From the IMG/VR virus record IMGVR_UViG_3300030389_002778, positions 1 to 24,286 of that record: 24,286 nt of DNA; one strand, written 5' to 3'. The notes beneath the pieces are model-generated. The model saw only the letters and a program-made list of their open reading frames with translations, did not search any database and was not told the origin of the DNA. Made by a program: the position numbers and the translations under genes. This stretch comes from a virus. Below, piece after piece: positions 13,740-18,703 of this stretch (positions are counted from its first letter, which is position 1; each line of letters opens with the position of its first letter).

Positions 13740-14733
13740 AAGAAAAAGTCTTCTTTGATATTTCGTCTAGTTTATTCATTATATCATCTGTAAAATATTT
13801 TTCAGGTTCTGCGTATATATTTTTCGCATATATTTTTTTACCATCCATCTCATATCTTCCAGCAACATTCTTCCAAAGACCACCAAGTTCTCCTAATTCA
13901 AGAAGACCATAGTAACGATCAAGTCCTCTTTCATCATAGTAGAGTCTTATTTCTACTTGTTGATTTTCTTTGGAGAGTCTACTTTTAGCCGTCTTAGCTT
14001 TAATAATGTTTCCAACAACCTCTGTCTTATCCTTTTCCTTTTTCTTGCTGAGATAAATGATTGTAGACGCGGCATACTTGAGGCCACTGCCGCCTCCCAT
14101 TTCTTTAGTTGGGATATAAGATCCGATGACATCGTAAGTGTGATTTGTAACTATAAGTGGAATATTTGCTTGACCAAGTTTTAAGGTAAGCATACGAAAT
14201 GCACCTTTCACAAGTTGAGATTTGGTCATATCTCTTACTTGTTTATCGTTAAGTGCATCAGTAATTTCTTTCTCTGTGGAAAGCATACCTAAAGAATCTA
14301 ATACAAACATGCAGGGTTTGCGATTCTCTTCTTCTGTCTTCAAGTATATATCAACTGCACGAAGTGCCTTACTTCGAAACTCTTCGATTGTAACAACATT
14401 TACAACAACAAGTCTCGTTTGATCAATTCCACGAGATGCAAGTAATCCCTTGGTGATTGCTGCTTCAGTATCAAAATAGAGGCAATACCCATCAGGATTA
14501 GTGTCCAAAAAGTTCTTGACAATAGCAAGGGAAAAATAAGTTTTTCCAGTAGAAGTCTCACCAGCAATGGCAGTGATCTTATTAGTAGAAACGCCACCAT
14601 AAACGGAACCACTAACAAGCGCATTGAAGATATAACTTCCTGTATCAATGAATCTTTCTGTTTCATCTATGTCTGCTGCAATCTGGGTGTATTCATCACC
14701 AATTTCTTTTACTATCTCTTTTAAAAAATCCAT
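13726..14733 (-). CDS. uvsX: RecA-like recombinase UvsX
   Basis: 335 residues, shorter than T4 UvsX (391). It forms filaments on single-stranded DNA and drives strand exchange for recombination-dependent replication. Walker A is GETSTGKT at 58-65. A Walker B-like strand reads CMFVLDSLGML, and IPLIVTNHTYDVIGSYIP matches the RecA motif after it. MGGGSGLKYAASTIIYLSKK is the expected loop and strand near DNA-binding loop 2. The stop is followed by a helicase gene that begins inside its last codons. The ATG overlaps the polymerase stop by one base (TAATG), making 43-uvsX-41 a coupled core operon. Confidence 0.95.
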   Translation of the reverse strand: MDFLKEIVKEIGDEYTQIAADIDETERFIDTGSYIFNALVSGSVYGGVSTNKITAIAGETSTGKTYFSLAIVKNFLDTNPDGYCLYFDTEAAITKGLLASRGIDQTRLVVVNVVTIEEFRSKALRAVDIYLKTEEENRKPCMFVLDSLGMLSTEKEITDALNDKQVRDMTKSQLVKGAFRMLTLKLGQANIPLIVTNHTYDVIGSYIPTKEMGGGSGLKYAASTIIYLSKKKEKDKTEVVGNIIKAKTAKSRLSKENQQVEIRLYYDERGLDRYYGLLELGELGGLWKNVAGRYEMDGKKIYAKNIYAEPEKYFTDDIMNKLDEISKKTFSYGTN

Positions 14734-17234
14734 TATGTAAAAAATAATTCAAGGTTTACAGTTTTTTCAACATTCCACCCAATAGCATCAAGGATTGCTT
14801 TAAGTGGTTCTACAAAGCTCTTCTCAAATTGTAGATCATAATCTATGTATTTGTCAAGTCCAAGTTCTCTTGGAAAGTCTTGAATGAATGATATAACATT
14901 CTCTTGTATTATATTTGGTCTTCGAAGATATATGAATTTTAATTTCTCACCATTATTAATCAAAGAATACTTATTGTCTAATTTCCTTTTCTTCACATAA
15001 TGATTAAAAAGAAGTGCTCCTCTTATATGTATTGGTGTCCCTTTTGCATAGATTGTAGATGATGCCTGATACTTACGAACATTAGATGCAGTTCTTGGAA
15101 ATGCAATATCTTCTGGTGGTAAAGTTTTAAACTTTGCACGACAATCGTCAATAAACTTAATTACATCTTCTTCGGTTCCATTCATCATCAACTTAAGTCC
15201 ATCTTTAATCATAGTGCGACAAGGTGCAGGAGTCGATGACTTGACTGCCTCAATACCCATCATCTTAAGTTTTGGTTCCTCATATCTTACACCTTCACTA
15301 TCCCATACATTCAAGATGTATCTTTTCTTTGCTGTCCAGATACCACGTTCTGCGATATTCTCACGTTTCATGAACATCTTTTGATCATAAGCATTTACAT
15401 AGTTGGCCAACGTTTCATAAGAACTTTCAATATACTTTTCAAATTCCACCTCACAGATCTTATTAAGGAACGACACAATGCCTTCAGTAGTTTTCTCTCT
15501 CCCTTTGTATATGACCTCCACCAAAGGACCAAGGTTAAGGTAGATAGAATCAGTATCACTAGCAATGACATAATCAACATCCTCCGTTTTTAGTATTTTG
15601 TTAATGAACGCATTCATTTTGTTTTCAATCCATCTGATTGATACCTGTCCAGATAGAGTGATGGCCTCTGCGTTCGCAAGTTTGTAATAACGAAAGTATT
15701 GATTACCAATAGCACCATAAGCAGAGTTAAGTTGGATCTTCCGTGCCATTTGGATATTATTGCACCTTGCGATCTCCTTTTCCAACTTCTTGGTTTTTGT
15801 TTTTTCATATTGTTGTTTTGCCTCCAACATTTTCTTTTTGTAAATGGTTCGATCTTTGTAAATCTTTTCCATTAGTTCTGGTAAGAAACCACGAACATCC
15901 TTACGATACATCGCACCATTCGCACATACAGCATTATCCTTATACATTTCAAAGGTAATGTCTTCAGAAAGTATCTTATCGACAGTAACTGATGGATGTC
16001 TTTGATCAAGTAAAGTTTCTGGAGAAATATTATACTGCATAATCAAATGCGGATATAGACTATTCAAGTCAAAAGAAACCACCCAATCATACTTGCCTGG
16101 TATTGGTTCTTTTACATATGCACCTGCATACTTTTCAGATTTATTTGACCTCTCTTTTGGAGGTATAACAATATTTCTTTTCTTCAGATAGTTGTAAATA
16201 ATTGTATCCCACATACGAACCTGAGAGAATACGTCAGCATAATTTGCTTTAGCATCATATGCCATAACAATTGCAAGTTCAATCAGTTTCATTTTATCTT
16301 CCAAACGGTCAACAAGTTCTACGTCAATGATGTTATATTCTACAAACTTCTGCCAACCTTTTGTATAGAAGTCCTTGAATGTATCAAACTCTGAGTGATC
16401 TAATTTCTTTTGCCCCAGTTCAACACTTGCAATATAATCCAAACGATATGACTCTTGTGCCTTATATGTAAACTTTTTATAAAGATTCAAATAATCAAGT
16501 TGAGTAATACCACCAATATCATATGTAATGTTCTTACGACCAGCAATATAAAGTTCATCTTCAGTCACCAAACCCCAAGGTGATAATCTCTTCTTTAATT
16601 TCTCTCCAAGAACACGATCAAGTCTACGTGTAAGATAAGGTATATCATACAATTCACTATTCCATCCAGTAATAACCTCTGGTGTATTATCTTCAATCAT
16701 CCACCAGTGAATAAAATCATTTAGTAATTCATACTCACTATTGAATCCTTTGTATATTACATTCTGTTGTTTATTATTGAAAGGTCCTTGACCCCAAGTG
16801 CGAATCTGTTTTGTATTATAATCCTGTATTGAAATAAGTAATATCTCCTGAGAAGCAGATTCTACATCAGGGAATCCATTCTCAGATTTAACCTCTATGT
16901 CTAAAGTGGTAATCTTGATTTTATTAACATCAAATTTAATTTCTTCTTCGGGATATTGTTCTGAGATATATTGATAGATATATCGATCATTACCATACAC
17001 CTTAAAGTTTTCTACCTCAGAATATCTCTTGATAAACTCACGACAATCTCTCACAGTACCAGGTTCGACTGCCTCAACAGCTTCACCATCCAATGTTTTA
17101 TATTTTGTTTTTCTTTTTGATGGAACAAAAAGGGTTGGATAGAACTTCTCACGAGTCATGAAATGTTTACCATTCTCATAACCACGAACTAAGAAATTAT
17201 CTCCAACCATTTGGACGTTGGTGTAAAACCTCAT
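14733..17234 (-). CDS. 43: DNA polymerase, family B, T4 gp43-like
   Basis: 833 residues (T4 gp43 is 898), in one uninterrupted frame. Exonuclease motifs: D112-I-E114 (Exo I), WNSELYDIPYL with D197 (Exo II), and Y300-x3-D304 (Exo III). Polymerase motifs: FDLNSLYPHLI with D389 (A), QLNSAYGAIGN with N503 (B), and ASDTDSIY with D560 and D562 (C). KKRYILNVWD fits the KxY motif. The protein ends NLELFFT, like the hydrophobic C-terminal peptide with which T4 gp43 binds its sliding clamp. It is coupled to the small upstream gene and to uvsX by TAATG overlaps. In T4, gene 43 is translationally autoregulated; here the leader lies one gene upstream. Confidence 0.97.
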   Translation of the reverse strand: MRFYTNVQMVGDNFLVRGYENGKHFMTREKFYPTLFVPSKRKTKYKTLDGEAVEAVEPGTVRDCREFIKRYSEVENFKVYGNDRYIYQYISEQYPEEEIKFDVNKIKITTLDIEVKSENGFPDVESASQEILLISIQDYNTKQIRTWGQGPFNNKQQNVIYKGFNSEYELLNDFIHWWMIEDNTPEVITGWNSELYDIPYLTRRLDRVLGEKLKKRLSPWGLVTEDELYIAGRKNITYDIGGITQLDYLNLYKKFTYKAQESYRLDYIASVELGQKKLDHSEFDTFKDFYTKGWQKFVEYNIIDVELVDRLEDKMKLIELAIVMAYDAKANYADVFSQVRMWDTIIYNYLKKRNIVIPPKERSNKSEKYAGAYVKEPIPGKYDWVVSFDLNSLYPHLIMQYNISPETLLDQRHPSVTVDKILSEDITFEMYKDNAVCANGAMYRKDVRGFLPELMEKIYKDRTIYKKKMLEAKQQYEKTKTKKLEKEIARCNNIQMARKIQLNSAYGAIGNQYFRYYKLANAEAITLSGQVSIRWIENKMNAFINKILKTEDVDYVIASDTDSIYLNLGPLVEVIYKGREKTTEGIVSFLNKICEVEFEKYIESSYETLANYVNAYDQKMFMKRENIAERGIWTAKKRYILNVWDSEGVRYEEPKLKMMGIEAVKSSTPAPCRTMIKDGLKLMMNGTEEDVIKFIDDCRAKFKTLPPEDIAFPRTASNVRKYQASSTIYAKGTPIHIRGALLFNHYVKKRKLDNKYSLINNGEKLKFIYLRRPNIIQENVISFIQDFPRELGLDKYIDYDLQFEKSFVEPLKAILDAIGWNVEKTVNLELFFT

Positions 17235-17500
17235 TAGGATGTCAATTTAATATACTTGTCACGTAACTCACCCTTTGGTTCGACAAATGTAAGTGCATCA
17301 CCCGACCTCATCATTGTAACAGATTGATTGCTAAAGTCCAACCATGGTTCCAGAGTATATGTCTCTTCTGTTTTAATTAACTTAAAAGGACTAATTATCT
17401 TGCAATCTGGTTCACCAGGTATATCACCAAACACCTCTTCAACTTCTGATATTAAAATAACACCACTCGGCAAAATAATACATTGTATATTCTTTTCCAT
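17234..17500 (-). CDS. Small beta-rich protein of unknown function, first gene of the polymerase operon
   Basis: 88 residues from the ATG at 17500; a TTG at 17509 would add three residues. Alternating strands such as IQCIILPSGVILISEVEEVF and KIISPFKLIK look like a small beta-barrel (Sm or SH3-like), but no motif settles it. The end reads VEPKGELRDKYIKLTS. No Shine-Dalgarno sequence precedes the ATG; the stretch before it is A/U-rich and follows the pseudoknot candidate, so translation may be controlled there. TAATG overlap couples it to gene 43. Confidence 0.8.
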   Translation of the reverse strand: MEKNIQCIILPSGVILISEVEEVFGDIPGEPDCKIISPFKLIKTEETYTLEPWLDFSNQSVTMMRSGDALTFVEPKGELRDKYIKLTS

Positions 17501-17523: not shown

Positions 17524-17569
17524 GGTAGATTCCTATCGCCGCTGATCCTGAACCTACCAAAGGGGATCA
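17524..17569 (-). promoter_or_regulatory. Candidate H-type pseudoknot in the leader of the polymerase operon
   Basis: On the minus-strand transcript, TGATCC (17569-17564) pairs with GGATCA (17548-17543), six base pairs. GGTAGGTTC (17558-17550) pairs with GAATCTACC (17532-17524), nine pairs including one G-U. The second helix starts inside the loop of the first, so the order is A-B-A'-B', a pseudoknot. Loops are 5, 1 and 10 bases. It lies 23 bases before the ATG at 17500, separated by an A/U-rich stretch. Pairing was found by eye. Confidence 0.55.
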
Positions 17570-17597
17570 CCGCAGTCAGTATTTATTTGACACATAT

Positions 17598-17625
17598 ATT
17601 ATACCATAAAAAAAGGGTTCGTCAA
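17598..17625 (-). promoter_or_regulatory. Sigma70-type promoter embedded in a terminator, upstream of the polymerase operon
   Basis: The minus strand has TTGACG (17625-17620), a 16-base spacer and TATAAT (17603-17598), preceded by TGG to give an extended -10. Transcription would start near 17591-17593, giving a leader of about 90 bases before the ATG at 17500. The -35 box starts in the loop of the terminator hairpin at 17615-17631, and the T-tract forms part of the spacer. Confidence 0.75.
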
Positions 17626-17631
17626 GAACCC
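17608..17631 (-). terminator. Rho-independent terminator after the 354-residue gene
   Basis: Minus strand: stem GGGTTC (17631-17626), loop TTGAC, stem GAACCC (17620-17615), then seven T (17614-17608). It starts 8 bases after the stop of the gene ending at 17639. It overlaps a promoter for the next operon. Confidence 0.85.
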
Positions 17632-17638
17632 CTATATT

Positions 17639-18703
17639 TTAGTAATCATCTATATCAATCAATACTTTTGAGTCCCATTCATCCGCATGATCTACAATAA
17701 ACTGTGGAATACAACCTTTAATTTTATAATGTTCAGATAAATTAATATTTTTAAATGTCATACCTCTTCTGTCTCCAACTACTTTGTACATGAGTCTAGC
17801 ATATCTTTCAAGATCTGTTAGAAATTTAGTTTTCTTCTTTCTCGCTTCTGAAGGTAATCTTCTCTTTGTGTAGAGTATAATATCTACTGGAGTTTGTAAT
17901 CCATGCTCCAATACTGCCTCGCAAAAGGCACGACATGAATATGTATCTGAATCCATAGAAAATAAAAAAGTTGTCTTATTATCTACTGGAATGTGAAATT
18001 CTTTATTTAATATTTCTTGCCAAACTTTTCTCTCCTTTATACGAACTGCATTTTCACCTTCAGCATATCTTTTTAATATACCTTCTAAAATGAGAGTAAC
18101 ATTTCTTGGAGCGAAGTACATGCCAATCTTTAATCTAGTTTTTAACCAATCAAGTATGTCTACTTCATTTGGTTCTAATTCACCTTTACCTATTAAACTC
18201 AAACCCGATGTGATAACGTCTTCTCTAGTTCCTTTAGTTGCAGGATCATGTTTAAGATTTGCTAAAACACCCGCACTGATTCTTGCGAGTTCACCAGGTT
18301 CAATCTTTTTAAGATTGATCCAAGGTATTCGTTTCTCCTTGTTTCGTATTCCTGCTATTGCTCGACCTCTACCTTCTACAGGAAGTTGTTTTCCGTTGGA
18401 ATCTTTTGATCCCATACCTGGTTCGTGTTTTGTCTTATAACCACTTACGGAATAACTATTTTGTAGTGCATCAATTCTATCGTCAGCATTACCCTCTTCT
18501 CTGACACCATCATTAGACCACACATCATCTAATTCATCTACGTCTTCCTGAAGATCAAGTGAACTTAAACTTTGGAATTCATATCCTTCTGGTATATCTA
18601 CTTCTCTATTTTCATACTCTGAGAGATTAATCTCCCCAACTCCGTTAAAACCTGGTAGTTTTTTAGGACCTACAATGTCCTGTGCTTTAATAGTGTACTT
18701 CAT
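17639..18703 (-). CDS. ParB-like domain protein of unknown function
   Basis: 354 residues. At about 75-130 the order is DDRIDALQNSYSVSGY, then KQLPVEGRGRAIAGIRNKEK and RIPWINL. This resembles the ParB/sulfiredoxin-like core (a leading helix, then a G-R-x-R box, a helix and a strand ending IPW), which in ParB binds nucleotide and DNA. The rest includes helical and mixed segments, such as DILDWLKTRLKIGMYFAPR and VDIILYTKRRLPSEARKKK, that I do not recognise. The function is therefore open: DNA binding, nuclease or partition-like. It has its own promoter (18780-18807) and terminator (17608-17631), so it is probably a single-gene transcript, with an untranslated leader of about 70 bases. Confidence 0.78.
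   Translation of the reverse strand: MKYTIKAQDIVGPKKLPGFNGVGEINLSEYENREVDIPEGYEFQSLSSLDLQEDVDELDDVWSNDGVREEGNADDRIDALQNSYSVSGYKTKHEPGMGSKDSNGKQLPVEGRGRAIAGIRNKEKRIPWINLKKIEPGELARISAGVLANLKHDPATKGTREDVITSGLSLIGKGELEPNEVDILDWLKTRLKIGMYFAPRNVTLILEGILKRYAEGENAVRIKERKVWQEILNKEFHIPVDNKTTFLFSMDSDTYSCRAFCEAVLEHGLQTPVDIILYTKRRLPSEARKKKTKFLTDLERYARLMYKVVGDRRGMTFKNINLSEHYKIKGCIPQFIVDHADEWDSKVLIDIDDY

Follow-up and report, generated by a model that had tools for sequence, protein, structure and literature searches.

Is the H-type pseudoknot ahead of the DNA polymerase (gp43) operon in IMG/VR virus record IMGVR_UViG_3300030389_002778 a switch for that operon, or is it an RNA with an independent function? 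The primary production of the oceans is shaped by T4-like cyanophages, whose non-coding RNAs, apart from tRNAs and a handful of predicted motifs, are to our knowledge almost entirely undescribed. An earlier note on the window (the whole stretch of DNA analysed, 24,286 nt) had suggested that it may be an autoregulatory site, bound by gp43, by the small protein encoded upstream of it or by some other replication protein, on the model of the T4 gene 32 leader, where an H-type pseudoknot is followed by an A/U-rich stretch before the start codon. Comparison with homologues in other phages leads us to a different answer: the element is probably an RNA with its own job rather than a DNA polymerase gene switch, and we rate it as a new family of predicted phage structured RNA.

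Structure and covariation of the pseudoknot

The pseudoknot at 17524-17569 lies on the minus strand, which the earlier note had left unnamed, and its interleaved helices of 6 and 9 bp (one G-U pair) and loops of 5, 1 and 10 nt are all as that note described. From 5′ to 3′ on this strand, the first arm of H1 (TGATCC, 17564-17569) is followed by the 5-nt loop L1 (CCTTT, 17559-17563), the first arm of H2 (GGTAGGTTC, 17550-17558), the single A of L2 (17549), the second arm of H1 (GGATCA, 17543-17548), the 10-nt loop L3 (GCGGCGATAG, 17533-17542) and the second arm of H2 (GAATCTACC, 17524-17532). An A/U-rich stretch then leads to an ATG at 17500 with no Shine-Dalgarno sequence, again as described.

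On the window sequence alone, the pseudoknot does not stand above chance: with loops relaxed, 6+9 H-type pseudoknots also turn up at several other positions of the window, and six shuffled strands contained nine of them. Nested folding z-scores of the element were unremarkable (-0.1 to -1.7), and nested folding programs cannot show H1. The reality of the pseudoknot therefore depends on homologues rather than on single-sequence folding.

In 51 diverse homologues, 99.9% of the cells of the two helices were paired, compared with 83.1 ± 0.8 in shuffles, and the covariation score was 0.555 versus 0.227. Sliding the partner by one column lowered pairing to about 50%. Two-sided changes were present in 12 of the 15 pairs, comprising all 6 pairs of H1 and 6 of the 9 pairs of H2. 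Shared ancestry of the homologues makes the shuffle control overstate significance, but the solutions are so diverse (TGATCC/GGATCA, TTATGC/GCATAA, TTACTC/GAGTAA and TGCTTC/GAAGCA for H1; GGTAG, CCTGG, GATAG, GACGG and CAGGG types for H2) that they are hard to explain otherwise, and the covariation is credible despite this kinship. Nor is the pairing an artefact of having required it in the search, since both helices can be drawn in 160 of 171 viral sites fetched by the unpaired motifs alone, and the other 11 seem to be unrelated sequences. One pattern scan of bacterial and archaeal genomes (84,980 species) returned 66 chance sites that carry these unpaired motifs and in no case form both helices, and we rejected a host origin of the element on this result. 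The earlier note had asked whether homologous leaders preserve both helices; across the 51 homologues they do, and the pseudoknot that it had placed in the 5′ leader of the gp43 operon is genuine and conserved. We consider this H-type fold, with its two covarying helices, close to certain.

Across homologues, there is hardly any change in the loops UGCGR, CCUU and GCGGCKAUAG. L3 occurs as GCGGCGATAG in 73 and as GCGGCTATAG in 27 of 100 paired sites and in no other form, with its inner four bases left free in the search. In L1, the CC and the following T's are near-invariant and the length of the loop tracks that of H2.

Two resemblances were considered and set aside. The string CUGCGG...CCUU recalls the 3′ end of 16S rRNA (helix 45 plus the anti-Shine-Dalgarno), but the intervening part covaries and only two short motifs remain. 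A tRNA-like 3′ CCA end was rejected because the last bases of H2 vary along with H2.

A 5′ hairpin, an upstream promoter and the predicted RNA start

Three features went unmentioned in the earlier note: a 5′ hairpin, a promoter and the independence of the element from the polymerase operon. Upstream of H1 stands the linker TGCGG (17570-17574, minus strand), invariant apart from its last base: among 100 paired sites it reads TGCGG in 93 and TGCGA in 7, with no other form, and it too was left free in the search. The linker is preceded by a hairpin, P0 (GTCAAATAAATACTGAC, 17575-17591, minus strand), which in the homologues varies in length and ends directly at TGCGG. Further upstream on the same strand lie a −10 hexamer TATAAT with a preceding TG (extended −10, 17598-17603) and a −35 hexamer TTGACG (17620-17625), which together match 11 of 12 positions of the sigma-70 consensus with a spacer of 16. 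The predicted transcription start, 17591, is 6 nt past the −10 hexamer. The gene upstream (17639-18703) ends in an intrinsic terminator on the minus strand (17613-17633; 8-bp stem, 5-nt loop, T run) whose loop holds the −35 hexamer, a compact layout that recurs in sister contigs. In some phages, promoter and P0 are encoded in the end of the upstream coding sequence.

The same arrangement is found across the family. Promoters matching at least 10 of 12 positions were detected in 110 of 128 sites by a search independent of P0, compared with 1.8% in shuffles, and the first base of the P0 stem lies exactly 6 nt past the −10 hexamer in 115 of 128 sites, a count for which the stem nearest 6 was taken among several possible ones. 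When the RNA start was placed from the promoter, its first five bases paired with the five bases preceding TGCGG in 95, 98, 98, 93 and 83% of distinct cases, the arms having been placed without use of pairing. P0 shows 58 two-sided changes versus a shuffled mean of 15, and a 1-nt shift abolishes the signal. The 6-nt rule implies that the RNA should start blunt, with P0, and the first base of P0 is most likely the first transcribed base. For a discrete RNA, the 5′ end is thus well predicted from the promoter and P0, and a putative 3′ end is taken from the tRNA spacing.

A blunt 5′ end could serve the transcript that follows. P0 and the pseudoknot might shield it from 5′-dependent decay or aid translation without a Shine-Dalgarno sequence, and this is consistent with a 5′ end that P0 leaves without unpaired bases, with an A/U-rich downstream mRNA leader that lacks a Shine-Dalgarno sequence and with the induction of host RNase E in cyanophage P-SSP7 infection (PMC10989914). 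However, a generic stabiliser would be expected many times per genome and the element occurs once; it would leave the near-invariant loops unexplained; and a tRNA, which often follows the element, requires neither kind of help. We give such a role only a small chance.

Distribution and genomic neighbours

blastn searches with the surrounding kilobase and with 81 bases around the element recovered copies in P-SSM2, P-SSM5, ACG-2014f, S-SKS1, S-B43, S-SCSM2R, SynMITS9220M01 and single-cell marine viruses, and their locations bear no relation to the flanking genes. Pattern scans of IMG/VR returned at least 160 sites, at least 125 of them distinct, and the family is larger than this. Using a covariance model built from the family found in these same searches, we counted a single copy in each of the 8 GenBank carriers and the 8 IMG/VR carrier contigs searched, with next-best scores near noise. 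The model did not find the element in 14 cyanophages (P-SSM4, Syn9, S-PM2, P-SSM3, P-HM2, S-CREM1, S-RSM4, P-RSM4, S-SSM7, Syn1, P-SSM7, S-CRM01, S-SRM01 and S-SCSM1), a count in which strongly diverged copies could be missed; the phages tested for copies are a non-random sample. At gathering and at relaxed thresholds, no Rfam 15 family matched the element, either in the window or in 27 homologous loci, and we found no description of it in the full-text literature covered, which leaves aside subscription papers and preprints. The element is common in marine viromes and present in the cultured phages P-SSM2, S-SM2, Bellamy, S-SKS1 and ACG-2014f, so that a strongly covarying RNA family new to Rfam can be tested immediately.

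What follows the element differs between phages. Among the matches listed, a tRNA gene begins 1-5 nt after H2 (mode 3 nt) in 66 of 125 distinct sites, and the tRNA is Arg(UCU) in 49, Pro(UGG) in 16 and Lys in 1. At the remaining sites, the element stands ahead of Sm-like genes with gp43, of purM (P-SSM2), of gp32 or of other genes, such as those for a Phd-like antitoxin and a 73-residue phrog_552 protein. In two contigs (L015 and L051) the tRNA gene beside the element looks interrupted, with an HNH endonuclease gene after it, which suggests a homing insertion in tRNA-Arg.

This placement bears directly on the autoregulatory model. The element does head the Sm-like/gp43 operon in the clade of the window, it precedes gp32 in two contigs (L161 and L195), and it shares with the T4 gene 32 leader an H-type pseudoknot followed by an A/U-rich unstructured leader. 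In contrast to that leader, it carries P0 and conserved loops and often stands before tRNA genes, and it does not keep to the leader of one replication gene across relatives, as the T4 gp43 and gp32 sites would lead one to expect. It occupies the head of the gp43 operon only in the window's own clade, and in some carriers, S-SM2, SynMITS9220M01 and S-SKS1 among them, 20-31 kb separate it from gp43. Placement thus follows neither gp43 nor gp32, tRNA contexts dominate, and the element is wholly missing from many cyanophages. Autoregulation by gp43 or another replication protein, as the earlier note had it, appears already largely refuted by comparative placement, and we regard it as very improbable. 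We also rejected the element as a mark of a long replication operon, as gp43 lies downstream in P-SSM2 (at about 4.5 kb) and not in other carriers. A replication-origin primer, which a promoter with a structured RNA in single copy might recall, is unlikely because about half of the sites run into tRNA genes and not into an easily melted region.

In the window, the first gene downstream (17234-17500, minus strand) encodes an 88-aa Sm/LSm-like protein of phrog_483 and the second (14733-17234, minus strand) encodes gp43 (phrog_262, E 0). The profile of the 88-residue family matches PDB 3BY7, a cyanophage Sm-like protein, with E 9e-8, and an AlphaFold2 model (pLDDT 90) retrieves PDB 3BY7 with a TM of 0.83, followed by Lsm/Sm proteins. 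Paralogues of 105-114 aa stand ahead of the 88-aa gene in sister contigs. The suggestion that this protein may bind RNA is therefore a reasonable one, and because Hfq is absent from most Prochlorococcus strains (PMC2518516), Sm-like proteins carried by phages are of interest. However, the family also precedes gp43 in phages without the element, such as P-HM2, so nothing ties the protein to the RNA, and the two are not linked elsewhere.

The downstream genes also bear on another reading, in which the element would be a compact pseudoknot riboswitch that binds a ligand and is built like SAM-II or preQ1-I. Conserved loops across an H-type pseudoknot and a position in 5′ leaders would suit such a switch, and a riboswitch function has been proposed for manA and wcaG, two motifs of these phages (PMC2864571). 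Yet the genes that follow the element share no function or pathway, about half being tRNA genes; no Rfam riboswitch matched even at relaxed thresholds; and no alternative terminator or hairpin sequestering a Shine-Dalgarno sequence was seen near the sites. The chance of a riboswitch is slim.

A terminator-like hairpin lies within 110 nt downstream in just 4 of 122 sites. The RNA therefore almost always shares a transcript with something else, and this would fit a cis role as well. Another strong promoter, which would serve the next gene, was found within about 30 nt in 12 of 56 non-tRNA sites, where 0.1 were expected, so that this gene need not depend on the transcript of the element; the match in the window itself (10 of 12) is probably due to chance. 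At some non-tRNA sites, a TGCCAG...CTGGCA hairpin precedes the second promoter. In the clade with a 71-73-residue phrog_552 protein downstream (L128, L134 and L154), this hairpin and a second consensus promoter directly follow the element, which gives the RNA the look of a self-contained unit.

A candidate trans-acting RNA and comparable systems

Single-copy occurrence, an invariant core and the lack of a fixed downstream gene argue that the RNA works as a product and not as a gene switch. We tentatively favour, as a reading that falls a little short of probable, a cyanophage structured RNA gene that would be transcribed early in infection by the host RNA polymerase from its sigma-70-type promoter and act in trans. 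The blunt hairpin would protect the 5′ end. With tRNA genes so close, RNase P cleavage at the tRNA could readily provide the 3′ end, which otherwise could arise by an endonuclease cut in the A/U-rich leader and trimming to the pseudoknot. The product, of about 68 nt, would act through its conserved single-stranded loops on a putative host or phage protein or RNA, and in the window it would have been placed ahead of the Sm-like/gp43 operon without any need to regulate that operon. Conservation of the loops even when they are left free in the search supports this reading, whose RNA start, 3′ end and abundance are all deduced from sequence, and patchy presence across cyanophages weakens the case for an essential role. 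A broader proposal, possible but on balance doubtful, is a new class of trans-acting viral small RNAs with a blunt hairpin-pseudoknot, early expression and a 3′ end cut from a tRNA precursor by host RNase P, which may work with phage Sm/LSm-like proteins on host RNA polymerase, RNA decay or antiviral defence.

The main rival to a trans-acting RNA is action in cis in the manner of HK022 put, in which nascent P0 and the pseudoknot would stay on RNA polymerase and make it resist downstream pauses and terminators. putL, about 70 nt long and located just past an early promoter, works without any phage protein (PMC9378689), and the element likewise is a phage-encoded RNA of similar size with a structured extreme 5′ end, right after a promoter that the sigma-70 consensus would class as early. 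It appears to begin at the first transcribed base, and its co-transcription with the genes that follow would suit such a role. However, put RNA consists of two stem-loops with a triplex and without a pseudoknot, whereas the element is a hairpin with a covarying pseudoknot; HK022, which has a lambdoid host, carries two copies on its early operons, whereas the element is present once and on operons that differ between phages. A terminator scan of the window found one weak hit on the element's strand in the first 5 kb of the operon, and in 12 of 56 mRNA sites a second promoter stands directly after the element. We judge put-like action unlikely, if far from negligible.

Small structured RNAs also serve as antitoxins. 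ToxI is a pseudoknot RNA, and abiF (RF03085) is an RNA antitoxin family in other bacteria. Unlike type III systems, the element is a single unit without tandem repeats or an adjacent toxin gene and has varied neighbours. In the Rfam search abiF did not match the element, and we rejected the element as an abiF RNA because S-CREM1 carries abiF and lacks the element. The abiF-type sRNA of S-CREM1 (L406:2032-2068) lies 4 nt before tRNA-Gly (PMC9964418). No abiF toxin gene is annotated in the 4 kb viewed, and a counter-defence decoy is possible.

The manA RNA motif (RF01745), another structured RNA that T4-like cyanophages carry, occupies mRNA leaders or, in other phages, sites between tRNA genes, and it was single copy in all six genomes in which we found it. 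It differs from the element in its length of about 192 nt and in fold and sequence, with no mutual match, and the two coexist in ACG-2014f, P-SSM2 and S-B43. Placement beside tRNA genes in single copy and independently of any one gene, as seen for the element and for manA, suggests that some motifs described as cis-regulatory in these phages are free RNAs released by tRNA processing. In ACG-2014f (L001:1215-1425), S-B43 (L004:1632-1842) and S-CREM1 (L406:1716-1930), tRNA genes flank manA on both sides at a distance of about 1-2 nt, and this RNA, which is catalogued as cis-regulatory, may be an excised free RNA.
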